Below are positions 20,739 to 32,790 of a DNA stretch of 35,030 nt, piece by piece (position 1 is the stretch's first letter; each line of letters opens with the position of its first letter). Made by a program: the position numbers and the translations under genes. The notes beneath the pieces were generated by a model, which was given only the letters and a program-made list of their open reading frames with translations, ran no database searches and was not told the origin of the DNA. The DNA is from Bacteroidales bacterium (GTDB lineage: Bacteria; Bacteroidota; Bacteroidia; Bacteroidales; F082): positions 1-35,030 of the forward strand of contig WGDP01000138.1 in the NCBI GenBank assembly GCA_015493215.1. Reading direction: 5' to 3'.

Positions 20739-21737
20739 ATGGACTTGTCAGTCAGTTACTTAGGTTTGAAAATCAAAAATCCGATTGTAGTTGGTAGCTC
20801 CAGCTTAACCGCATCGATTGAAAACCTGAAGAAAATTGAGAACAGTGGTGCCGGAGCCGTTGTTTTAAAATCAATCTTCGAAGAAGAAATATTTTACGAA
20901 TATCAAAGCATTCTGGAAAAGGAAAAAGGCCTGGAGTTTCCCGATGTTCGCTTTTTGGATTATTATGATTACAAAATCAAGCAGGATAACATTAAAAAAT
21001 ATCTTGATTTGATTAAAGAGGCAAAAAGCACTTTGAAGATTCCGGTTATTGCCAGCATCAACTGTAAAAGTTCGTGGGAATGGGCTTTCTTTGCCAAGAA
21101 GCTTGAAGAAGCCGGTGCCGATGCCATTGAGCTGAACATGTTTGTGCTTCCTTCCGATTTCGATTTAACCTGTAACAAAGTTGAAGAAACTTATCTTACC
21201 ATTATTGATAAGATTACAGCTGAGGTAAAAATTCCGGTAGCAGCAAAACTGAGTTACTACTCGGCAAACCTTGCTGCTTTTGTTAAAAAGGTATCCGAAA
21301 CCAAAGTCAGTGGTGTGGTACTGTTTAACAGGTTTTTTCACCCTGATTTTGATATCGACAACTTTACCCTGGTACCAAGCAATGTTTTGAGCCGCTCATC
21401 CGACCTCGCCATTTCATTGCGCTGGATGTCGATTTTGGCAGGCCGTGTTGACAGCGACCTTATTGCCTCTACCGGTGTTCACGATGGTGCTTCCGTTGTT
21501 AAAGAAATTCTTGCCGGTGCCGATGCCGTTCAGGTGGTATCATCATTATATAAACATGGTATCGAATCCATCGAAGACATGCTGGAAGAGATGAAAACAT
21601 GGATGGAAAAACACGGGTTTAACACCATTGCCGACTTTAAAGGCAAAATGAGCCAGGAAAAAAGCCCCAACCCTGCCGAGTACGAAAGAGTTCAGTTTAT
21701 GCGCTATTTCGAAGGCAAAAAATACAACCTCGGATAA
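20739..21737 (+). CDS. Dihydroorotate dehydrogenase-like flavoprotein (atypical active site)
   Basis: This 332-aa TIM-barrel protein belongs to the DHOD/PyrD superfamily: N-terminal LSVSYLGLKIKNPIVVGSSSLT, K(S)IFEEEI, and a C-terminal FMN phosphate-binding region (STGVHDGASVVKEILAGADAVQVVSSLY). The loop that carries the catalytic Cys or Ser in true DHODs (normally N-x-S-C-P-N) reads ELNMFVLPSD, so it lacks that residue. Synthesis of pyrimidine from this enzyme is therefore unlikely. It is the first gene of the operon, 17 bp before MnhE, which suggests a redox role with the membrane complex or its electron carrier. The substrate cannot be named from sequence. Confidence 0.8.
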   Translation: MDLSVSYLGLKIKNPIVVGSSSLTASIENLKKIENSGAGAVVLKSIFEEEIFYEYQSILEKEKGLEFPDVRFLDYYDYKIKQDNIKKYLDLIKEAKSTLKIPVIASINCKSSWEWAFFAKKLEEAGADAIELNMFVLPSDFDLTCNKVEETYLTIIDKITAEVKIPVAAKLSYYSANLAAFVKKVSETKVSGVVLFNRFFHPDFDIDNFTLVPSNVLSRSSDLAISLRWMSILAGRVDSDLIASTGVHDGASVVKEILAGADAVQVVSSLYKHGIESIEDMLEEMKTWMEKHGFNTIADFKGKMSQEKSPNPAEYERVQFMRYFEGKKYNLG

Positions 21738-21754: not shown

Positions 21755-22267
21755 ATGCAAGCATTAACATTTAATCAAAAAATGGGGAGGTTTATCGTAA
21801 ACTGGATATTCCTTATGCTGTTATGGATTATGTTTACCAGTACGTTTGCTGCTCAGGAATTGATTGTCGGTGGTTTGTTAACCATGCTAATCTCATTCTT
21901 AAGCATTCGTCTGTTCACCTGCTGTGATTTATCACTATTAAGTCCCGTAAAGATTTTTTGGATGATTTATTACTTTGGTGTTTTTTTGGTAGCACTGATT
22001 CAGGCCAACCTCGATGTTGCCCGCAGGGTAATAGCCCCTTCACTTCCCATTAACCCCGGTGTTGTTAAGTTTAAAACCAAACTGAAAACAAATTATTCAA
22101 AAATGGTTTTAGCCAACAGCATTACACTTACCCCGGGAACGCTTACCATTGATGTTGTGGGCGACACTTTTTACATTCACTGGATTGATGTAAAAACCAC
22201 CGACCCCGAAAAAGCGTTTACCGAGATAGCAGAATCGTTTGAAAAAGTTTTATTAAAAATATTTTAA
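21755..22267 (+). CDS. mnhE: Mrp/Mnh antiporter subunit E
   Basis: This 170-aa protein has two to three N-terminal membrane helices (IVNWIFLMLLWIMFT; LIVGGLLTMLISFLS; IFWMIYYFGVFLVALIQANLDVA) and a soluble C-terminal part with the MnhE signature VVKFKTKLKTNYSKMVLANSITLTPGT region followed by (D)TFYIHWID. In Mrp-type antiporters and Mbh/Mbx complexes this small subunit belongs to the Na+/H+ translocation module. It starts 17 bp after the DHOD-like gene and its stop overlaps the ATG of MnhF by one base. Confidence 0.9.
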   Translation: MQALTFNQKMGRFIVNWIFLMLLWIMFTSTFAAQELIVGGLLTMLISFLSIRLFTCCDLSLLSPVKIFWMIYYFGVFLVALIQANLDVARRVIAPSLPINPGVVKFKTKLKTNYSKMVLANSITLTPGTLTIDVVGDTFYIHWIDVKTTDPEKAFTEIAESFEKVLLKIF

Positions 22268-22527
22268 TGATGACATACATTATTTACATAGCATTTTCGC
22301 TTATGGCCCTGGGTATGATTATGTCAGCCATACGATTTGTTAAAGGCCCCACGGCCGGCGACAGAGTTGTTGCGCTCGACACACTTACTACCATTGGGGT
22401 ATCGGCACTGGTGCTGCTTGCCTTTGTATTTCAGCGTTTTATATACGTTGATGTGGCATTGGTTTATGCAGTACTCGGCTTTATAGGAGTAATTGTAATT
22501 GCCAGATATTTGGAGGGTGCGCTATGA
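22267..22527 (+). CDS. mnhF: Mrp/Mnh antiporter subunit F
   Basis: This 86-aa protein of three helices carries the family hallmark RFVKGPTAGDRVVALDTL between helices 1 and 2. The last helix is VALVYAVLGFIGVIVIARYLEG. Start and stop overlap its neighbours (TAATG with MnhE, 4 bp with MnhG), so translation is coupled. It is part of the ion-translocating module. Confidence 0.92.
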   Translation: MMTYIIYIAFSLMALGMIMSAIRFVKGPTAGDRVVALDTLTTIGVSALVLLAFVFQRFIYVDVALVYAVLGFIGVIVIARYLEGAL

Positions 22528-22889
22528 GTATTATGGAAATTATCGCCGGCATACTTATTATTATAGGTAGTATATTCCTGTTCCTCGGAGCACTGGGAAT
22601 TTACCGTATGCCCGACATTTATAATCGTCTCCAGGCAGGCACAAAAGCCACAACCCTTGGAGCCATGAGTTTAATTTTAGGTGTTGGGTTTTTAGAGCCC
22701 ACCTGGATGCTGAAAAGTTTGGTTTTAATCATCTTTATTGCATACTCTAACCCCATCAGCTCCCATGCATTGGCCAGGGCAACTTATCGCCGTGGACATT
22801 ATCCGCTTATTTTAAGCGATGATAAAGAAAACATGGATGCTTATCAGGAAGTAGTCCCTCACGAAAAAGAAAAGGAGGAAAAGATATGA
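22524..22889 (+). CDS. mnhG: Mrp/Mnh antiporter subunit G
   Basis: This 121-aa protein has three helices and the MnhG signature GALGIYRMPDIYNRLQAGTKA followed by TLGAMSLILG. The end of the last helix reads AYSNPISSHALARATYRRG, which is characteristic of the family. The C-terminal tail is charged (DKENMDAYQE...EKEKEEKI). It overlaps the next gene by 4 bp. Confidence 0.92.
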   Translation: MSIMEIIAGILIIIGSIFLFLGALGIYRMPDIYNRLQAGTKATTLGAMSLILGVGFLEPTWMLKSLVLIIFIAYSNPISSHALARATYRRGHYPLILSDDKENMDAYQEVVPHEKEKEEKI

Positions 22890-23170
22890 TGGCATTTATT
22901 TTAATATTGATTTTACTTGCACTAATGATTGCAGCATCAGTTTATGCCGTGAGGCAAAAAGATTTACTGTATGCTGTTATCGCCACAGGTATTATCAGTC
23001 TTGTTCTTTCCATTCTGTTTTACCTGCTTCAGGCACCCGACGTGGCACTTACCGAAGCAGCCATCGGGGTGGCTTTAACGACCATTATTTTTGTTATTAC
23101 CATCCGTAATACGGTAAGAATGGAAGATGAATCAGATAAAAATAAAAACATAAAATCAGCAGCGAAATGA
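22886..23170 (+). CDS. DUF4040 / MbhD-like membrane subunit
   Basis: This 94-aa protein has three helices and the conserved segment YLLQAPDVALTEAAIGVALTT. In Mrp antiporters it corresponds to part of the C-terminal end of the large MrpA subunit, and in Mbh/Mbx complexes to MbhD. It is encoded here as a separate small subunit because no MrpA is present. It overlaps MnhG and the next gene by 4 bp each. Confidence 0.88.
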   Translation: MMAFILILILLALMIAASVYAVRQKDLLYAVIATGIISLVLSILFYLLQAPDVALTEAAIGVALTTIIFVITIRNTVRMEDESDKNKNIKSAAK

Positions 23171-23889
23171 AAAAGATATTAGTATTATTGTTGCTGGCTG
23201 TTGTTGGGTTTTATACTGCCGAAACCTTTTTTGATATTGGTTTTGGAAAAGCTCCTTTTGTAAAAAGCAGCGAAATTAAACCCGTTAAAGATGTCTATCT
23301 GCATCAAACAGTTCAGGAGTTAAAAGTAGCCAATGCTGTAACCAGTATTGTTGTAAACTTCAGAGGATTTGACACCCTCGGCGAGGTTACCGTTCTTTTC
23401 CTTTCGGTAACTGCTTTGGGAAGTATTTTATATAAGAAAAGACACCACGTGGGCGAACGTTCGGTATTGTTTTCGGCTAGTAGCATTGTTACTTCCGGTT
23501 CAAAACTACTGTTTCCGGCCATTGTACTTTTAGGTGCTTATGTATTTATCCACGGTCACCTTTCACCCGGTGGAGGTTTTCAGGGCGGTGTTATTATTGC
23601 CACAGGATTTTTGTTGATGTTACTGGCTTACGAAAACTATTCGGTAAGCCACAAAGGACTTGCTATTGTTGAGTCGTTGGCAGGTATCACCTTTGCAGGT
23701 GTCGGCTTGCTTGGATTTATGAACGGAGGAACCTTTTTACAAAACTTCCTCGCAACAGGAACCCTTAACGACCTCTTTAGCGGTGGTATCATCCCCATCA
23801 TCTATATTGCTGTCGGCTTTAAAGTAGCTGCCGAACTTACCGGTGTTATTTATACCGTATTAAACGAGAAAGGAGAGCAACATGGATAG
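23167..23889 (+). CDS. MbhE-MnhB fusion membrane subunit
   Basis: This 240-aa protein joins two units. Residues 1-95 resemble MbhE or the extreme C-terminus of MrpA (VTSIVVNFRGFDTLGEVTVL). Residues about 110-235 are MnhB (LLFPAIVLLGAYVFIHGHLSPGGGFQGGVI). About six membrane helices are visible. MbhE and MnhB/MbhF are usually separate small proteins, so the fusion fixes their 1:1 ratio. It overlaps MnhC by 8 bp. Confidence 0.88.
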   Translation: MKKILVLLLLAVVGFYTAETFFDIGFGKAPFVKSSEIKPVKDVYLHQTVQELKVANAVTSIVVNFRGFDTLGEVTVLFLSVTALGSILYKKRHHVGERSVLFSASSIVTSGSKLLFPAIVLLGAYVFIHGHLSPGGGFQGGVIIATGFLLMLLAYENYSVSHKGLAIVESLAGITFAGVGLLGFMNGGTFLQNFLATGTLNDLFSGGIIPIIYIAVGFKVAAELTGVIYTVLNEKGEQHG

Positions 23890-24253
23890 CACTTACTTTC
23901 AATACTTAGATTATGCGGTTTACGGAACTGCTGTTTTGGTGATGCTGATAGGCTTATATGCCGCATTGGTAAAAAAATCACTGTTAAAAATAGTAATCGG
24001 CCTTTCTATTGTCGATTCGGGGTTAAACCTGCTTATCGTTACCCTCGGTTATATTAAAGGAGGCACTGCACCTATCTTTTCGCCGGGTTACAACGGAACA
24101 CAGGCTATGGTTGACCCAATTCCACAGGCTTTGGTACTTACTGCCATCGTTATCGGGTTTGGTGTAACAGCTGTTGCGCTGTCGCTCGTTATTCGCCTTT
24201 GGAGACATCATCATACATTATATATTGACGAAATAAAGAATTTAAAATGGTAG
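23882..24253 (+). CDS. mnhC: Mrp/Mnh antiporter subunit C (NuoK-like)
   Basis: This 123-aa, three-helix protein is homologous to NuoK. The signature is LIGLYAALVKKSLLKIVIGL..., then NLLIVTLGY and DPIPQALVLTAIVIGFG, typical of MnhC/MbhG. The helix-2 acidic residue expected in the NuoK family corresponds to Asp in the IVDSGLNLLIV segment. It overlaps MnhD by 7 bp. Confidence 0.9.
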   Translation: MDSTYFQYLDYAVYGTAVLVMLIGLYAALVKKSLLKIVIGLSIVDSGLNLLIVTLGYIKGGTAPIFSPGYNGTQAMVDPIPQALVLTAIVIGFGVTAVALSLVIRLWRHHHTLYIDEIKNLKW

Positions 24254-25734
24254 GAACTCCGGTTTTATTTATTGCAATTCCCCTCTTGGCGGCCTTTTTA
24301 ATTCCGCTAACCGGGATGGTTTGGAAAGAGTCGGTTAGGATTATACCCGGACTGATTCTTGCTTACCTGTTGGTATTAGCCATCAATCTTTTAAGCTATG
24401 TTACCGTTAACGGTCCCATTGTGGAGGTTATAGCCGGCTGGGCACCTCCCATTGGAATTAACTTGGTATTCAATGCTTTTTCGGGATTTTTGGTTACAAT
24501 TATGGTTTTTATGGGGCTTTTGGTGTGGCTTTACAGCTATCGCTTTAAAAGTAATGTTGAATACGAAGCCGCCCGTAAATATTTTCTTTTATTAATGATG
24601 CTCGTAACCGGTTCGGTAGGTATTGTTTTAACAGGCGATATTTTTAACATGTTTGTGTTTATCGAAATCACGGGTATTTCGGGCTATGCTTTAACAGCCT
24701 TTTATACAGGTCGTGACAGTGCCGAAGCCTCTTTTAAATACTTAATAATGGGGTCCATAGCATCGGTATTTTTGCTGTTGGCCATCATGATTATTTATTC
24801 GCAACTTGGTACGTTAAATATGGCTGATGTTGCTTCGAAAATGCATTTGATGGATCCCAAATATAAAGCGGTATCGTTTATACTGTTTGTTATTGCTTTG
24901 GGTATCGAAGCGGAAGTTTTCCCGCTTAACGGATGGGCACCTGATGCTTATGCCGAAGCTCCCGGCCCTGTGGGTGCAGCATTTTCAGGTATCGTAGTAA
25001 AAGCTGCCGTGTATGCGTTGATTCGCTATACCTACACCATATTCGACCTCTCAGGAGCGTTCGACCTGCTGATTATTGTTGGTTTGATGACGCTGGTTAT
25101 AGCCGAAGTTGCTGCCATACGTCAGGAAAAACTGAAAAGAATGTTGGCTTACTCCTCCATCGGACAAATGGGATTGGTTTTTGTTTCGTTTGGTATTGGT
25201 ACAAAAGAGGGTGTTTTTGCCGCTCTGTTTATCATGCTAAACCACGCCATCATTAAACCGCTTCTTTTCTTTAGCGGCAGCTATTTGGTTTATCATTCCA
25301 AGAAAAAAACCATTTCCGACGTGGATGGAATGGGTAAACTTGCACCCTTTACCTCACTTTTGTTTGCATTGGGTGCCTTTTCAATAGTTGGCCTTCCTCC
25401 GTTTGCAGGCTTTTGGAGTAAGTTGTCGTTTTTAATGGCTGCTGCCGATAGCAATATGCTGCTTATTATCGGGCTGATTCTTACTGTCAGTGTGGTTGAG
25501 CTGGTATATTACATGCGTGTGGTAAACAGAATATTCTTTTTTAAACGCGCTTCGCACCTGCTGGCACGCAGGCCTACTTTCAATGCATACATTGTTATGT
25601 CGGTTTTAGCTGTGTTGATTCTGGTAATCGGTTTTTACCCCGACAGTGTATCAACATACCTGCATAATGCCGCCAACAGTTTATTCGACAAGTCTCAGTA
25701 TATTCATAGTGTGTTAACCGCAACAATTCAATAG
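24247..25734 (+). CDS. mnhD: Mrp/Mnh antiporter subunit D (NuoM/N-like)
   Basis: This 495-aa protein has about 14 helices and the proton-pumping antiporter fold. The TM5 glutamate is present (FNMFVFIEITGISGYAL), as are the TM8 lysine (SGIVVKAAVYALIRY) and the TM12 lysine (GLPPFAGFWSKLSF). The TM7 position that is normally Lys in front of the A-x-x-PLH/N-W segment is Glu here (GIEAEVFPLNGWAPDAYAEAP). The start overlaps MnhC. It is one of two large antiporter-like subunits in the cluster and is expected to move Na+ or H+. Confidence 0.9.
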   Translation: MVGTPVLFIAIPLLAAFLIPLTGMVWKESVRIIPGLILAYLLVLAINLLSYVTVNGPIVEVIAGWAPPIGINLVFNAFSGFLVTIMVFMGLLVWLYSYRFKSNVEYEAARKYFLLLMMLVTGSVGIVLTGDIFNMFVFIEITGISGYALTAFYTGRDSAEASFKYLIMGSIASVFLLLAIMIIYSQLGTLNMADVASKMHLMDPKYKAVSFILFVIALGIEAEVFPLNGWAPDAYAEAPGPVGAAFSGIVVKAAVYALIRYTYTIFDLSGAFDLLIIVGLMTLVIAEVAAIRQEKLKRMLAYSSIGQMGLVFVSFGIGTKEGVFAALFIMLNHAIIKPLLFFSGSYLVYHSKKKTISDVDGMGKLAPFTSLLFALGAFSIVGLPPFAGFWSKLSFLMAAADSNMLLIIGLILTVSVVELVYYMRVVNRIFFFKRASHLLARRPTFNAYIVMSVLAVLILVIGFYPDSVSTYLHNAANSLFDKSQYIHSVLTATIQ

Positions 25735-25746
25735 GAGAACAAAGAA

Positions 25747-27597
25747 ATGGATATGATAACATTAATATTATTATTATTTTTAGGTGGTGCCATTGTTACC
25801 TGGTTGGGTGGCAAACTGAGTCCCATCGTGGGCGACATGCTGTTTTTAGTTACTATCATCGTTCCTGCCGGAATGTTTTTTACAGGCGTTACGGTTGGCG
25901 AGGTAACTCATATACATGCATTGGGCCTTACCCTCACCTGGGGTTTGTCTCCATTGAGTTATTTATTCTCGATGATTGTGGTTGGCCTGGGAATTTTACT
26001 CGCTATCTACGCTGTTCCTTTTATGAAAGGAAAACAAAAAACAGGTGCTTTTTATTTTAACTTTACCCTGTCGGTGATGGCTATGTTGGGTATTCTCGTA
26101 AGTAAAGACTGGGTCTCTTTCTTTATTTTTTGGGAAATTATGACATGGTCATCTTATCTGATGGTAATACTCAACGGTAAAGATGTACAAAGAGTTGGAA
26201 TTAAATACTTTATATTTTCTGCCATTGGTGCTTATGCCATGTTAATGGCCATGGTTGTTATGAACAGCCAGCTCGGTAGTTTTTTAATGGCCGATACGTT
26301 TAACAACTTCCAGCATTTAACGGTGGGCAATCAAATATTAATTCCCATTTTATTGTTAACTGCCTTTGGTGTTAAAAGTGCCATGATGCCGCTTCATGTT
26401 TGGGCTCCCGATGCTTATAGCAACGCGCCCATGGCTTACACCGGACTTTTTTCGGGCGCTCTTTCAAAAATGGGTATTTACGGAATGGTGCTGGTGATGG
26501 TTACCATGATTAATCAGTTGCCCGAAGGCACTTTAATCAGAGATATCATTGCATGGATAGGTGGTTTCACTGCCGCAGCGGCTACCCTTTGGGCTATTAC
26601 ACAAGATGACGGTAAAAAATTGCTTGCCTGGTCATCGGTTGGGCAGATGGGTTACATCATTGTTGGTGTGGCCATCGGAACCCCGCTGGCAATGTTGGCA
26701 GCGCTGTTTTTGGTTGTGGTTCATGCCATGTTTAAAGGCAGTTTGTTTATGGTGGTTGGAGCCATCGAAAAGCAAACCGGCACAACCGATTTCAGAGAGA
26801 TAAACGGCCTTATCAGAAAAATGCCCTGGACCTTTATCTCGGCATTAATTTCTGTTATTGCTTTGGCAGGTATTCCTCCATTGGCAGGCTTTGTTTCAAA
26901 ATGGATGTTGTACGAAGCTTTGATTCAAAACAACAATTACATTTTGGTAATTTTGTTGTTCTTTGCTTCTACAGCCGGTTTCCTGTACTGTTATAAATTT
27001 CTCCACGGGTACTTCCTCGGACAGGAAGAACCTGAATGGGCACATGTAAAAGAAGCTCCTGTAACTATGGTTGTTCCCATGCTTTTATTGGCCATTGGAA
27101 CTTTTGTTTTAGGAACCTTCCCTCAACTGCTTTTTAAACCCATCGACAGTGCATTACAATATGTTGGTTACGATGCCACCGGAGGCCACTTATGGGGTCA
27201 GTCAATCCTGTTCTCCGAATGGGGTGATGTGGTTACTTTGCAACCTATTTTATATGCAGTGCTGGCTGTGTTTGTATTTTTCGCCCTGTTTTTATGGTTT
27301 AAAGGAACCAAGGGCACACGTTATGTTTCCACAAAAGATATTAGTTCTTCGGGAGAACTTCCAAAGGAATGGGAAAACCTTACCTTTAAGGTTAACTTTA
27401 TGCAACCTTTTGAGCGTGTAATTGAACCCTTCCTGAAAAGGCAAATCGATAAATATTATACGGCATTTGGAAACGGATTGGAAGCTTTGTTTGAGTTTAC
27501 CAGACGTATTTATACAGGTAATGGCCAAACATACGCCATTTATGCCATCCTGTTTTTAGCACTATTGCTGCTGTTCAGAGTTAATTTGTTCGGATAA
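25747..27597 (+). CDS. Second antiporter-like subunit (NuoL/M, MbxH-like)
   Basis: This 616-aa protein has about 14 core helices plus a C-terminal extension with a final membrane helix (YAIYAILFLALLLLFRVNLFG). It keeps the TM5 Glu (FFIFWEIMTWSSYLM), a canonical TM7 Lys (FGVKSAMMPLHVWAPDAY), the TM8 Lys (SGALSKMGIYGM) and the TM12 Lys (IPPLAGFVSKWMLYEAL). An AGGAG ribosome-binding site lies 8 bp upstream, unusual in this window. Together with MnhD it provides two ion channels. A pair of such subunits is known in archaeal Mbx/Mbs, while Mbh has one. It probably sits next to the NuoH-like subunit. Confidence 0.88.
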   Translation: MDMITLILLLFLGGAIVTWLGGKLSPIVGDMLFLVTIIVPAGMFFTGVTVGEVTHIHALGLTLTWGLSPLSYLFSMIVVGLGILLAIYAVPFMKGKQKTGAFYFNFTLSVMAMLGILVSKDWVSFFIFWEIMTWSSYLMVILNGKDVQRVGIKYFIFSAIGAYAMLMAMVVMNSQLGSFLMADTFNNFQHLTVGNQILIPILLLTAFGVKSAMMPLHVWAPDAYSNAPMAYTGLFSGALSKMGIYGMVLVMVTMINQLPEGTLIRDIIAWIGGFTAAAATLWAITQDDGKKLLAWSSVGQMGYIIVGVAIGTPLAMLAALFLVVVHAMFKGSLFMVVGAIEKQTGTTDFREINGLIRKMPWTFISALISVIALAGIPPLAGFVSKWMLYEALIQNNNYILVILLFFASTAGFLYCYKFLHGYFLGQEEPEWAHVKEAPVTMVVPMLLLAIGTFVLGTFPQLLFKPIDSALQYVGYDATGGHLWGQSILFSEWGDVVTLQPILYAVLAVFVFFALFLWFKGTKGTRYVSTKDISSSGELPKEWENLTFKVNFMQPFERVIEPFLKRQIDKYYTAFGNGLEALFEFTRRIYTGNGQTYAIYAILFLALLLLFRVNLFG

Positions 27598-27610: not shown

Positions 27611-28540
27611 ATGGAATATATTTTAATAAAAACTTTAGAGGCAATAGCCACTTTCATTCTCGCTTTTATAGTGGGGATGACATACGGAGGAGTTGTTCGG
27701 AAAATTACCGGAAGAGTACACAACCGTTTGGGGCCTCCCTGGTATCAAAATTTTATTGATGCTTTTAAGTTGTTTTCAAAAACCCGTGGAATTCATCACG
27801 GAGCCATGCACTTTCTCGGAGCAGCCTTTTTAATGGTAACCTCAGTGGTATCGTTAATGATTATCCCCGTGTTGGCTCCCGGTGGGCATGCATGGTATAA
27901 CAGCTGGTTTACCAACATGAATTTTAACGGCGACCTAATCTTCCTGCTTTACATTATGACCTTTGGCCCTCTTGGTATGGCCATGGGAGCAGGACAAACA
28001 GGTAACCCCAACTCATCCATTGGTGTAACCCGTGGATTGAGCCAGATGGTTGGGTTTGAAATCCCGTGGGTAATGGCTTTGGTTGCACTTATGATTAGCT
28101 ATAAAACAACCTCTGTTATTGACTTTATGAACATTCAGCGCGAAACAGGTACCTGGCTTATGTTTGCCAACCCATTTGCATTTATTGCTGCTGTTTTGGC
28201 CATGCTGGGGATGTTCAGATATTCTCCTTTCGATATTGTGGGAGCACCTACCGAGCTGGCATCAGGCCCTGTTTCGGAAAACGGTGGTAAATTTCTGTTT
28301 ACCATGATGTCGTCAGGATCGGTATTTACCTTTGCCAAACTGGTATTGTATGTCGATTTGTTTATGGGTGGAGCCAATAACCTGGTAATGCTCGTGGTAA
28401 AAACATTTTTGCTCTACATGATTCCTGTATTATATGGTATAGTTAGCCCCCGTTACCGTACAGAACAAGCTGTAAGATGGTTTTGGGGATGGCCAACCTT
28501 TATTGGCTTACTCGCTATTTTATATGCTGTAATGTTTTAA
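27611..28540 (+). CDS. NuoH / MbhM-like membrane anchor subunit
   Basis: This 309-aa protein has eight helices and links the redox arm to the ion channels. Hydrogenase-type signatures are present: RVHNRLGPPWYQNFIDAFKLF, TFGPLGMAMGAGQTGN and RYSPFDIVGAPTELASGP followed by SENGGK. These resemble Mbh/Ech-type HycD/MbhM more than quinone-dependent NuoH. The gene lies 13 bp after the second antiporter subunit and 13 bp before the NuoB-like gene. Confidence 0.88.
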   Translation: MEYILIKTLEAIATFILAFIVGMTYGGVVRKITGRVHNRLGPPWYQNFIDAFKLFSKTRGIHHGAMHFLGAAFLMVTSVVSLMIIPVLAPGGHAWYNSWFTNMNFNGDLIFLLYIMTFGPLGMAMGAGQTGNPNSSIGVTRGLSQMVGFEIPWVMALVALMISYKTTSVIDFMNIQRETGTWLMFANPFAFIAAVLAMLGMFRYSPFDIVGAPTELASGPVSENGGKFLFTMMSSGSVFTFAKLVLYVDLFMGGANNLVMLVVKTFLLYMIPVLYGIVSPRYRTEQAVRWFWGWPTFIGLLAILYAVMF

Positions 28541-28553
28541 AAATTATTGAAGA

Positions 28554-29105
28554 ATGTATAACGATAAGAATTCAAAAAAGATAGTTGAGACAATTCAAAA
28601 TTGGGCACGAAGCCACTCCGTTTGGGTATTAGCCTACGGAACAGGCTGCGGAGCCATTGAAATTGCTCCTACCATGACTTCGAGATATGATGCGGAACGG
28701 TTGGGTTTCAGGGGTGCTGCCACCCCGCGCCAGGCCGATGTGATGCTTATTACCGGCTACCTTACCGTTAAAACGGTAAAACGGGTAGTGCGTGTTTACG
28801 AGCAGATGCAAAGCCCCAAATATGTGGTCGGTTTTGGCTCATGCACCATCAACGGGGGCATGTATTACGATTCGTACAACACCATTAACCTGCTTGATAA
28901 ATACCTCCCTGTAGATGTTTATATCAACGGTTGTATGCCGCGTCCCGAAGCAGTAATTGCCGGCCTAGCCAAACTGCAACAAATTATCCGCGAAGGAAAA
29001 GCAAACGGTGCCGAAAAGTACCTTGAAAACCTTGATTGGTATAAAGCAAATCAGCGTAAAATTGCACCCAAATGGATTGCAAAAGCACCTGATTATAACT
29101 GGTAA
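28554..29105 (+). CDS. NuoB / MbhJ-like Fe-S subunit with altered cluster site
   Basis: This 183-aa protein is the small-subunit homologue of NuoB and group 4 hydrogenases. The expected features are present: GFGSCTINGGMYYDSY (C97) and PVDVYINGCMPRPEAVI (C127). The first ligand region reads GTGCGAIEIAP (C32-G33), where NuoB has two adjacent cysteines (CC.xE), so only three of the four N2-type ligands are visible. The DNA there (ggctgcggagcc) is unambiguous. The fourth ligand might be a non-Cys residue, come from the large subunit, or be absent. Confidence 0.88.
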   Translation: MYNDKNSKKIVETIQNWARSHSVWVLAYGTGCGAIEIAPTMTSRYDAERLGFRGAATPRQADVMLITGYLTVKTVKRVVRVYEQMQSPKYVVGFGSCTINGGMYYDSYNTINLLDKYLPVDVYINGCMPRPEAVIAGLAKLQQIIREGKANGAEKYLENLDWYKANQRKIAPKWIAKAPDYNW

Positions 29106-29126: not shown

Positions 29127-29693
29127 ATGAAAGAGATAAAAGATACAATGATTGCTAAAATCAAAGCGGCGTTTCCGGAAGCGGTAAACAAAGCGTACGA
29201 TGGCAATCGTTTGGATTTCACCGTTCATAAAGATGCTATCCCGGGCTTTCTTTCACATATGAAAGAACAACTTGGGTTCCGGCACCTTTCACATATCGCC
29301 TATGTTGACTGGATTGAGGAAAACGAGTTTGAAATAGTTTATATTCTTTGGTCGCCCGAAGAAAAAGTAAAACTCTTTATTCATACCCGTATCGACCGCG
29401 AAAATCCTGTAATGGAAAACATTGACATGATTTGGCGTCAGGCAAACACCTATCAAAGGGAAATGAAAGAGATGTTGGGTATTGAGTTTCCGGATATGGT
29501 TGCTCCTGATGAGTTTATTCTTGAGGACTGGGATGACATCCCTCCTTTCCGCAGAGACTTTGATACGCTGGAATATGTTAACCGAACCTTTTGGCACCGT
29601 CCCGGAAGAGAAGATGCTCAGGATGTACGTGAAACCATTACCAAACGTTCGGGTGAAGAAATTCCTGATTTTGCAAAAAAATACTCCAGATAG
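29127..29693 (+). CDS. NuoC / MbhK-like subunit
   Basis: This 188-aa soluble subunit is homologous to the 30-kDa subunit of complex I. The key segment is MIWRQANTYQREMKEMLGIEFPD, then LEDWDDIPPFRRDF, which matches the NuoC signature (AN.YERE..D.FGI.F ... DW.GHP.RKDF) with the usual divergence of hydrogenase-type members. It stabilises the NuoD-like large subunit and ends 2 bp before it. Confidence 0.87.
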   Translation: MKEIKDTMIAKIKAAFPEAVNKAYDGNRLDFTVHKDAIPGFLSHMKEQLGFRHLSHIAYVDWIEENEFEIVYILWSPEEKVKLFIHTRIDRENPVMENIDMIWRQANTYQREMKEMLGIEFPDMVAPDEFILEDWDDIPPFRRDFDTLEYVNRTFWHRPGREDAQDVRETITKRSGEEIPDFAKKYSR

Positions 29694-29695
29694 TT

Positions 29696-30799
29696 ATGAG
29701 AGAAAAGGCAACAACAATATATTTAGGCCCTCAGCACCCCGGTATTACCGGAAACATGATGGTGCGTTTGAAAGTGATGGGCGATACCATCGTTAGTGCT
29801 CAAACAGAGGTGGGATACCTGCACAGAGCTTTTGAAAAGCTGCAGGAACGCAGAAACTGGCTGAACAGCTTTACACTGATGTGCCGTTTTTGTGTGCCCG
29901 AAACCGACCCCATGGAAAACCTTTACGCCCGTGCGGTTGAATCGCTCGACAACATTGAAGTACCCGAGCGTGCCAAATACATTCGTGTAATGGTGCTTGA
30001 ACTTGCCCGTATTGCCACCCAGTTAATGTGGTACGCCGGACAAAATGGTTCGTTGGGACTTTACACCATGGGACAGTGGTCGATTGGTGACAGAGATTAT
30101 ATTCTCGACCTTTTTGAACAGCTGACCGGTGGCCGCGTTTATCACATGTACCAATGGCCGGGTGGTGTTCGTCGCGACCTTCCCAAAGGATTTAAAGATA
30201 AGGTTTTAAATACACTGGATTATTTGGAAAAAAGGCTCAAAGATTATGATGATCTGATGTTTGCCAACTCCATTTTCCAAAAGAGAACCCAGGGTGTTGG
30301 CTATGTACCCAAAGAGAGCATTATTGAACATGGTGTTGTAGGCCCTGTGCTTCGTGGTGCCGGTATCAGAAGCGACATACGTATTGATGAACCTTACGAA
30401 GTGTATGACAAGCTGGATTTTGAAATTCCTACCCAGGAAGGTAGTGACATTTGGGCCAGAGCACTGGTTCGTCGTGCCGAAGTGCGCCAGTCGATTCGCA
30501 TTATTCGTCAGGTACTCGATCAGATGCCAAAAGGAGAATTCAACACCAAGATACCCAATCCGATGAAGTGGCGGGTTCGTGCCGGTGATACTTATGTTCG
30601 TGCCGAATCAGGACGTGGTGAAGTAGGCTATTACGCTGTTTCCGATGGCAGTATCCACCCAAGAAGGATGCATCTGAGAGGTGCTGCATATGTACATGCC
30701 ATCACACTGCTGGAAAACATCCTGCCGGGACAAAATGTTGCTGATGTATCAGCCATTATGAACAGCCTTGGAACCTGTGCACCGGAGATTGAGAGATAG
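29696..30799 (+). CDS. NuoD / group 4 hydrogenase large-subunit-like protein with CxPE motifs
   Basis: This 367-aa protein is homologous to NuoD and to large subunits of group 4 [NiFe] hydrogenases. It has N-terminal GPQHPGITGN and VGYLHRAFEKLQERR, then LMCRFCVPETDPMENLY and, at the end, SLGTCAPEIER. Aligned by the surrounding R.C and Y..AVE residues, hydrogenase CxxC at the first site corresponds to C66-V-P-E69. At the C-terminal site (DPCxxC..R) it corresponds to C361-A-P-E364. The second nickel-ligand Cys is thus Glu at both ends, with an extra Cys at 63. This rules out a normal NiFe centre. The second His of the NuoD HPxxHG motif is also absent, arguing against a canonical quinone site. 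Its substrate chemistry is unknown. Confidence 0.9.
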   Translation: MREKATTIYLGPQHPGITGNMMVRLKVMGDTIVSAQTEVGYLHRAFEKLQERRNWLNSFTLMCRFCVPETDPMENLYARAVESLDNIEVPERAKYIRVMVLELARIATQLMWYAGQNGSLGLYTMGQWSIGDRDYILDLFEQLTGGRVYHMYQWPGGVRRDLPKGFKDKVLNTLDYLEKRLKDYDDLMFANSIFQKRTQGVGYVPKESIIEHGVVGPVLRGAGIRSDIRIDEPYEVYDKLDFEIPTQEGSDIWARALVRRAEVRQSIRIIRQVLDQMPKGEFNTKIPNPMKWRVRAGDTYVRAESGRGEVGYYAVSDGSIHPRRMHLRGAAYVHAITLLENILPGQNVADVSAIMNSLGTCAPEIER

Positions 30800-30819
30800 T
30801 TGCGGATGATGGATATTGG

Positions 30820-30854
30820 TTAAAAGATAAAAGATAAAAGTTAATAGTTAAAAG
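30820..30854 (+). repeat. Five degenerate heptamer repeats upstream of the S23-like remnant
   Basis: Five 7-bp units in a row read ttaaaag, ataaaag, ataaaag, ttaatag and ttaaaag. They lie in the only sizeable gap inside the operon, directly before the four-helix-bundle remnant. Similar A/T-rich heptamer runs precede such remnants elsewhere in Bacteroidota, from memory. Confidence 0.55.
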
Positions 30855-30970
30855 TGAGTAGTCAAAGGGAAATAAAAAGTTTTGAAGATCTTGAATGCTG
30901 GAAAGCGTGTAGAGAAGCAAGACTCTTTGTTTCGGGAGTAATAAAAAAATTCCCTCCTGAAGAAAAATAG
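30854..30970 (+). pseudogene. Truncated four-helix-bundle (S23 / 23S rRNA intervening-sequence protein) remnant
   Basis: A GTG-initiated stretch of 38 codons encodes IKSFEDLECWKACREARL, then VSGVIKKFPPEEK and a stop. This is the N-terminal helix of the S23/four-helix-bundle family (typically K.FEDLEVWK.A.EL.......FP.EEKY.L...). The stop follows EEK, where the family continues with Y-x-L. Restoring two bases (aaaTAtagatta for aaatagatta) gives EEKYRLE before another stop, suggesting a 2-bp deletion in an already truncated copy. It lies between the large subunit and the last gene of the operon. Confidence 0.6.
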
Positions 30971-30999
30971 ATTAGAGTAAAAAATTAAACATAAAGACA

Positions 31000-32790
31000 A
31001 TGAGTTTTTTCGATTTACAAGGAACACTAAAGCCGCTTACCGCACTGAAACAGTTCGGTAAAAAGCCCCATACTTTAAAGGATATACCTTGGAAAAAACG
31101 GGAAGCCTCCGATAATTACAGAGGTTTACATTTTAACGATCTTGATGAGTGTATTGGATGTGGTAATTGCTCTACCATCTGCCAAAACGCTGCCATCGAC
31201 ATGATAAATATTGAAGGTATTGAAGGTAAAAAAGGCGATTCAGGCCTGCGCCCGCGTGTTGATAACGGACGTTGCTGCTGGTGTGCCCTTTGTGTGGAAG
31301 TCTGCCCAACAGGCAGCCTCAGCCTCACCAAAGATTACATCTATATTACTGAAGACCCCGATGCCTTTTTGTGGACGCCCGGTGTAAGCAACCCTGACGG
31401 CGAAGCAAGAAAATCGTATGTAAGTACACATGAGCTTTCAATCAACGAGTTCAACCGTGTTCCCATGCCGGAATTGGAAGGCAAAGAGCGTATCAAATCG
31501 TTTGCCGAAGTGGTGTTGGGTTACAACGAAGAGCAGGCTCGTGAAGAGGCATCACGCTGTATCAGCTGTGGTATCTGTACCGAAGTTTGTCCTGACCACA
31601 TGCATATTCCCGAGTATATTAACGCCATCGCTGCCGGTAACGACAAAGATGCCGTTAAAATTATTTACGACAACAACCCGTTGCCGGAGATGTGTGGTAA
31701 GGTTTGTACCCGCCGTTGTGAAGATGTTTGTGCCATCGCCACCCGTGGTGATTCAGTGGCTATCCGTTGGCTGAAACGTTATGCTACCGAAACAGCTGCC
31801 ACAGCCGACATTACACACGAAATTGTTAATCCCGAAATCAGAGAAGCCAATGGTAAAACAGTGGGTATTATCGGTGCCGGTCCTTCAGGCCTTACTGCTG
31901 CTTATTACCTGGCCTTACGTGGTTACGATGTAACTATTTACGAAGCCAGCGCCAAAGCCGGTGGTGCTACCATGTACGGTATTCCTAAATATCGTTTGCC
32001 CATCGAAAGTCTGGAAAAACAGATTGGCTATATCCAAAGCATCGGTGTTAAAATCAACTTCAACACCAAGGTTGGGAAAGACATCTCTTTTAAAGAGATT
32101 TACGATAAATACGATTCCGTATTTATGGGCGTTGGATTCCCCGATGCATGGCCATTGGGTGTTGACGGCGACGATGCCAAAGGCTCCATGCAGGCATTCC
32201 GTTACCTCTACATGATTAACTCCGGCGAAAAGGTGGATATTGGCGATAAAGTTGTTGTTGTTGGTGGTGGTAACGTTGCCATTGATGCAGCCAGGGTATC
32301 ACGCCGTTTTGGTGCCGATGTAACCATTCTTTATCGTCGTCGTGTTGAAGACATGCCCGCCGATTGGGAAGAGATTGAAGGTGCCGAAGACGAAGGTATC
32401 CACATCATTCCTCAGGGCATTCCAACCAAAATTCATAAAGATGACAAGGGCCATGTAACAGGTATTGAATATCTAAAAGCTGAAATGGTTGCCGATGATA
32501 AAGGCGGACGTCCGCGTCCGGTTGCCATCGAAGGTAGTGAAACCATTTTAGAAGCCACAGCCGTAATGGCGGCTATCGGCCAGATGGGTGATTACAGCTT
32601 CCTGCCCAAAGAGTTTGAAGACAAAATCAAAATTGAAAGAGGCCGTTTTATCGTTAACGAAAAACAACAAACAGGCGATCCGAAAGTATTTGCCGGTGGC
32701 GATGCCGTTAACCGTACTGCTGATGCTATTTCAGCTATTGCCGACGGTTTCCGTGCTTGTAAAGCAATCGACGAATACCTGAGTAAATAA
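31000..32790 (+). CDS. Polyferredoxin-GltD/NfnB-type FAD-dependent NAD(P)H oxidoreductase fusion
   Basis: In this 596-aa protein, residues 1-130 are a NuoI/MbhN-like ferredoxin domain with two 4Fe-4S motifs: C51-x2-C54-x2-C57-x3-C61, and C92-x2-C95-x2-C98-x3-C102. The rest is like the GltD/NfnB family: a third motif (C187, C190, C193, C197), a fourth cysteine set (C232, C236, C240, C244), the FAD Rossmann site GAGPSGLTAAYYLALRG (about 290), the NAD(P)H Rossmann site VVGGGNVAIDAARVSRR (about 420) followed by YRRR, and a C-terminal FAD motif (VFAGGDAV). It probably moves electrons between NAD(P)H and the NuoB-like subunit or ferredoxin. It is the last gene of the cluster, 30 bp before a strong terminator. 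Confidence 0.92.
   Translation: MSFFDLQGTLKPLTALKQFGKKPHTLKDIPWKKREASDNYRGLHFNDLDECIGCGNCSTICQNAAIDMINIEGIEGKKGDSGLRPRVDNGRCCWCALCVEVCPTGSLSLTKDYIYITEDPDAFLWTPGVSNPDGEARKSYVSTHELSINEFNRVPMPELEGKERIKSFAEVVLGYNEEQAREEASRCISCGICTEVCPDHMHIPEYINAIAAGNDKDAVKIIYDNNPLPEMCGKVCTRRCEDVCAIATRGDSVAIRWLKRYATETAATADITHEIVNPEIREANGKTVGIIGAGPSGLTAAYYLALRGYDVTIYEASAKAGGATMYGIPKYRLPIESLEKQIGYIQSIGVKINFNTKVGKDISFKEIYDKYDSVFMGVGFPDAWPLGVDGDDAKGSMQAFRYLYMINSGEKVDIGDKVVVVGGGNVAIDAARVSRRFGADVTILYRRRVEDMPADWEEIEGAEDEGIHIIPQGIPTKIHKDDKGHVTGIEYLKAEMVADDKGGRPRPVAIEGSETILEATAVMAAIGQMGDYSFLPKEFEDKIKIERGRFIVNEKQQTGDPKVFAGGDAVNRTADAISAIADGFRACKAIDEYLSK

Follow-up and report, generated by a model that had tools for sequence, protein, structure and literature searches.

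A bacterial MBX-type large subunit, very probably nickel-free, with C-x-P-E at both former nickel-ligand pairs

The window, a stretch of 35 030 nucleotides of contig WGDP01000138.1 from a Bacteroidales bacterium (GenBank assembly GCA_015493215.1), contains a gene at positions 29696–30799 (+) whose 367-residue product is very probably MbxL, the large subunit of a bacterial complex of the MBS/MBX type, free of nickel and with its nickel site surviving as a vestige. Complexes of this family are regarded as intermediate between NiFe hydrogenases and complex I. In the original prediction, made from the sequence of the window, the C-x-P-E motifs found at both nickel-ligand pairs were read as a selected two-Cys/two-Glu site that could bind a different metal or hold a changed catalytic pocket. 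The observation is correct but not new, and the window holds a further MBS/MBX complex. The motif pair is a known trait of the family, visible in the solved archaeal structure, since Pyrococcus furiosus MbsL carries C85-V-P-E88 and C385-P-P-D388; it is not a new metal site.

Identity of the large subunit

The translated product contains C63-R-F-C66-V-P-E69 (C66–E69 encoded at 29891–29902, +; the extra Cys63 of CRFC at 29882–29884, +) and, at its extreme C-terminus, C361-A-P-E364-I-E-R (C361–E364 encoded at 30776–30787, +). In an alignment with true group 4-like hydrogenase paralogues from related genomes (L020–L022; RICGICS ... DPCYCCTER), C66 and E69 line up with the L1 pair, and C361 and E364 with the L2 pair; this agrees with the prediction. 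Group 4 [NiFe] hydrogenases (MbhL, L020–L022) have cysteines at positions 66 and 361, as does the window protein, but also where the latter has E69 and E364; L020–L022 additionally extend beyond the L2 motif at the C-terminus, whereas the window MbxL does not. The four cysteines in two CxxC motifs required of a [NiFe] hydrogenase are thus not found in the window protein (C-V-P-E, C-A-P-E), which retains just the first cysteine of each nickel pair, with an acid second, as is characteristic of MBS/MBX.

The nearest solved member of this family is MBS, an ion-pumping relative of complex I formerly named MBX and known as the membrane-bound sulfane reductase of P. furiosus (PDB entry 6u8y; PMC7684303). 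Two of the four nickel cysteines have gone from P. furiosus MbsL and C85 and C385 are left (PMC7684303); the MbsL sequence, R-I-C85-V-P-E88 and C385-P-P-D388, agrees with this published numbering. C66-V-P-E69 of the window protein equals the first of these motifs and C361-A-P-E364 corresponds to the second, the window's second acid being Glu whereas that of MbsL is Asp. A phmmer search of the PDB with the window MbxL returned MbsL (6u8y_L) as the top match (1e-99), followed by the 49 kDa subunits of complex I (∼1e-67); the proposed kinship with Mbx/Mbs is supported. The AlphaFold model of the window MbxL (pLDDT 93.0, pTM 0.92) superposed on complex I 49 kDa subunits over its full length with Z ∼50 and an r.m.s.d. 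of ∼1.5 (VIA-align), and 6u8y_L was absent among the 50 structural matches listed for the model. That MbxL proteins of bacteria have more widely lost the CxxC motifs is already on record, the Caldanaerobacter subterraneus protein being described as without both (PMC4596419). The bacterial MBX complexes of C. subterraneus and Thermotoga maritima are homologous to that of P. furiosus and were set beside the window by description (PMC4596419, PMC9431562); mbxA of T. maritima is upregulated 4.4-fold on sulfur (PMC9431562).

The C-terminal tails of NuoD proteins follow the pattern [P/G/A]-[D/E]-x-D-[R/K] (for example V-I-P-D-I-D-R and L-G-E-V-D-R) and share with the window protein an acid at 364 as well as P363. 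At the other pair, E69 is specific to MBX, with S, G or A at 69 and D at 66 in NuoD. The proposal that the same substitution arose independently at both ends is therefore just half right: E69 is particular to MBX, but E364 is the state common to NuoD tails.

Conservation of the acids and cysteines

Conservation was assessed in loci of named genomes, taking the 80 nearest out of 574 matches, a sample in which distant MBX branches are under-represented. Among these closest 80, position 69 is acidic in 82 of 82 MbxL sequences (Glu 61, Asp 21) and position 364 in 99% of 79 (Glu 74, Asp 4, Gly 1, the last at a contig edge); R64 and V67 are constant over the 82 sequences and P363 over the 79. The cysteine columns of the same sample vary: position 66 is Cys in 68, Ala in nine, Asn in four and Ser in one (lost in 14 of 82), while position 361 is Cys in 57 of 79 and lost in 22, with Tyr in 18. 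After removal of a near-duplicate, C66 alone is kept in 8/81 and neither cysteine in 14/81. Cys63 is Cys in 51 of the 82 and Pro in 19. In the close relatives of the window, C66, E69, C361 and E364 are all invariant.

In a quick IQ-TREE phylogeny of these MbxL homologues from the closest 80 matches, C66 changed at least four times and C361 at least three, and most proteins lacking both cysteines adjoin one-cysteine proteins (C-V-P-E/Y-P-P-E). Because the acid columns are near-constant and the cysteine columns vary, the acids at 69 and 364 are under strong constraint throughout the clade and the cysteines at 66 and 361 are not. The two remaining cysteines have been lost separately in bacterial lineages that have acids at the second positions, and the acids have stayed. 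These columns support the original view that the change is not random decay (69 acidic in 100% and 364 in 99%, n = 81, within the closest 80 of 574 matches). Free variation, which had been named in advance as an argument against a selected four-residue site, was found at cysteines 66 and 361, and not at Glu69 and Glu364.

The MbxJ partner and the operon

The gene at 28554–29105 (+) encodes MbxJ, the NuoB-like subunit (6u8y_J, 4.7e-62). Catalysis by P. furiosus MBS takes place at the proximal [4Fe-4S] cluster, which is ligated by three MbsJ cysteines (PMC7684303). The window MbxJ has C32, C97 and C127 and no other cysteines; these match MbsJ C28, C93 and C123, a pattern that fits the three-Cys catalytic cluster of MBS, and none of them varies in any homologue that has the column (75 homologues among the closest 80 of 574 matches). 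Gly29 stands where MbsJ has the non-ligand C25. The equivalent of C25 is Gly in 46 of 73 MbxJ proteins from these closest 80, the window included, which shows that this cysteine is dispensable in nature as well.

The mbx genes occupy one strand. Small Mrp-type subunits in the order E, F, G, DUF4040/MbhD-like, B, C (21755–24253, +; NCBIfam matches) are followed by an MbxH-type (MrpD-like) antiporter subunit (24247–25734, +; PF00361, 8.1e-63), an MbxH′-type antiporter-like subunit (25747–27597, +; PF00361, 1.9e-59) and the NuoH-like membrane anchor MbxM (27611–28540, +; PF00146, 2.6e-49), so the Mrp-type module with H, H′ and anchor that marks MBX is present; the NuoC-like MbxK (29127–29693, +; PF00329, 2.8e-23) lies between mbxJ and mbxL. 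The gene at 31000–32790 (+) encodes a fusion of an MbxN-like 2×[4Fe-4S] domain (residues ∼1–120) with an NfnL/GltD-like FAD/NAD(P)H domain (∼150–596). Residues 9–118 match 6u8y_N (5.9e-21) and contain the MbsN-like cluster cysteines C51/54/57/61 and C92 or C93/C95/C98/C102, the pattern of an MbsN-like subunit with two [4Fe-4S] clusters. Residues 152–596 match the L subunit of NfnI (5jca_L, 9.1e-92), with Fer4_20 at residues 164–268, and have the Fer4_20, FAD and NAD(P) domains of an NfnL-like subunit; no NfnS partner was recognised among the annotated operon genes. The window complex therefore resembles MBS (6u8y) in the MbsL motifs, the three-Cys proximal cluster of MbsJ, the Mrp-type membrane arm and the MbsN-like ferredoxin subunit, and differs from it in the Gly at the C25 position, in the fusion of the N subunit to an NfnL/GltD-like NAD(P)H–flavin domain and in its bacterial (Bacteroidales) host.

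Wherever the contig is long enough among these 80 loci, a complete and conserved operon is found, and the N–NfnL-like fusion follows MbxL in most bacterial loci; a short N subunit alone occurs in Sulfurovum, Nitratifractor, one Chromatiaceae and an archaeal locus. In the Sulfurovum, Nitratifractor and Chromatiaceae loci (L045, L047, L052, L059), this short NuoI-like N without an NfnL-like domain is followed by an MrpE-like gene, an arrangement that differs from that of most bacterial loci. An arrangement related to the fusion was described in 2010 in Thermosphaera and Desulfurococcus, where the gene for a SudA/GltD-like NAD(P)H subunit adjoins the genes of dehydrogenase-linked MBX (PMC3035292); in these archaea the gene is separate, whereas in the window this domain and the MbxN domain form one protein.

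Immediately 5′ of the mbx operon, the window carries a gene for a dihydroorotate dehydrogenase-like flavoprotein (20739–21737, +; NF005741/PRK07565). Such a gene also precedes the operon in 7/7 relatives (L141–L147), and in six Bacteroidota loci of another MbxL clade (L083, L100, L103, L104, L108, L110) it comes right after the N gene; the gene may be functionally linked to MBX. The 200 bases that separate mbxL from the N fusion (30800–30999) contain a short open stretch, KSFEDLECWKACREARLFVSGVIKKFPPEEK. This reading frame gave no Pfam match; we take it to resemble a truncated four-helix-bundle (23S rRNA intervening-sequence) protein.

Alternative readings

In the former NiFe pocket, the two cysteines and two glutamates could in principle bind a metal other than nickel, such as Fe or Zn, as a new site that takes part in catalysis. 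All four residues occupy nickel-ligand positions and should therefore be mutually close, and both the near-complete conservation of the acids (99–100% in the closest 80 of 574 matches) and the invariance of the quartet in close relatives would suit such a site. In the same sample, however, 14 homologues of the same operon type are without both cysteines and eight more are without C361. The C85A/C385A mutant of MbsL has activity comparable to that of the wild type, and the electron path described for MBS comprises three [4Fe-4S] clusters and no other (PMC7684303). The metal site originally predicted was rejected on the natural variation of the cysteines and on this published mutant, and is now very unlikely. 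A quinone-reducing large subunit as in complex I is likewise very unlikely. The window protein is 35–39% identical to NuoD paralogues and shares the fold of NuoD/Nqo4; but the latter, which has no cysteine at any nickel position, possesses a quinone-binding His and Tyr (H38 and Y87 in Nqo4 numbering), for which the window protein has T18 and V67 (alignment, with PMC7684303). Moreover, the tree and the PDB scores group the window protein with MbsL, and its own genome carries a separate NuoD (L025).

An ion-pumping ferredoxin:NADP+ oxidoreductase, in which NADP+, bound at the NfnL-like domain, would be the final electron acceptor and the cavity of MbxL would serve for coupling alone, is a possibility of some weight, although we consider it doubtful. 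The fusion of the NfnL/GltD-like domain to the MbxN domain in most bacterial loci of the closest 80 matches speaks for it, as does the earlier literature, in which MBX is named a ferredoxin:NADP oxidoreductase (PMC4596419). Against this, the P. furiosus complex acts as a sulfane reductase whose active site lies at the proximal cluster (PMC7684303), and all the homologues sampled retain the three-Cys cluster, for which there would be no need if the NADP site were the sole end point. No measured activity was found in the literature for any MBX with an NfnL-like fusion.

Proposed mechanism and role of the acids

At the level of the sequences, the nickel site and the quinone-binding residues have been lost and the three-Cys cluster pattern has been kept. 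For the nickel-free MBS/MBX-type complex that we favour, the nickel site was very probably lost from a hydrogenase-like ancestor as the second cysteine of each pair became an acid; the first cysteine is very probably a leftover, retained in some clades and gone from others. Electrons may enter from NAD(P)H at the fused NfnL-like flavin domain and/or from ferredoxin and would then travel along the MbxN clusters until they reach the proximal [4Fe-4S] cluster, held by three cysteines of MbxJ. There, within the space vacated by the NiFe site, the open iron would reduce a small, hydrophobic substrate containing sulfur (polysulfide or sulfane), and this sulfane-type reduction may drive Na+/H+ transport by the Mrp-like arm. 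In bacteria such a scheme has indirect support from the induction of T. maritima mbxA by sulfur (PMC9431562) and from the Riftia symbiont, in which a putative Mrp–Mbx complex is co-expressed (PMC11636981). Our confidence in the donor and acceptor steps proposed for the window MBX is nearly evenly balanced.

E69 and E364 most likely shape the cavity or balance its charge near the invariant R64, R44 and H43, and do not appear to be metal ligands; this role is preferred because the acids stay where the cysteines go. Their role may be structural or lie in proton handling. The natural losses of cysteine support the published result for the MbsL mutant and provide ready-made variants for probing what the acids do. 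In a more speculative extension, which we regard as unlikely, E69 and E364 together with R64 would be functional in the MBX cavity by the open iron, for example in proton or substrate handling, one- and no-cysteine MbxL proteins would represent later steps of nickel loss towards a complex I-like state, and the bacterial fusion would be an NAD(P)H-linked MBS.

Distribution

MBX is patchy in the phylum: a match at MBX level (E < 1e-180) was found in two of 296 sampled same-phylum genomes, the window's own and G049, and the other sampled genomes gave matches of ∼1e-100 or weaker, in the range of the NuoD paralogue of the window's genome. The nearest named contig among the closest 80 of 574 matches, JALVAQ010000068, encodes an MbxL that is 99% identical. 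An argument from missing hydrogenase maturation failed, since HypD and true NiFe hydrogenases occur in the window's genome and in its relatives. One contig binned as Sulfurovum (L034) encodes an MbxL that shares 77% identity with the window protein and groups within Bacteroidales sequences; it is probably misbinned or transferred. MBX operons like that of the window, with C-V-P-D/C-P-P-E motifs and a C25-type cysteine in the J subunit, occur in Sedimenticola, Thiodiazotropha and a Lamellibrachia symbiont, among the loci of sulfur-oxidising gammaproteobacteria and symbionts (L058, L064–L067, L071, L073, L076, L080, L081 and L088).
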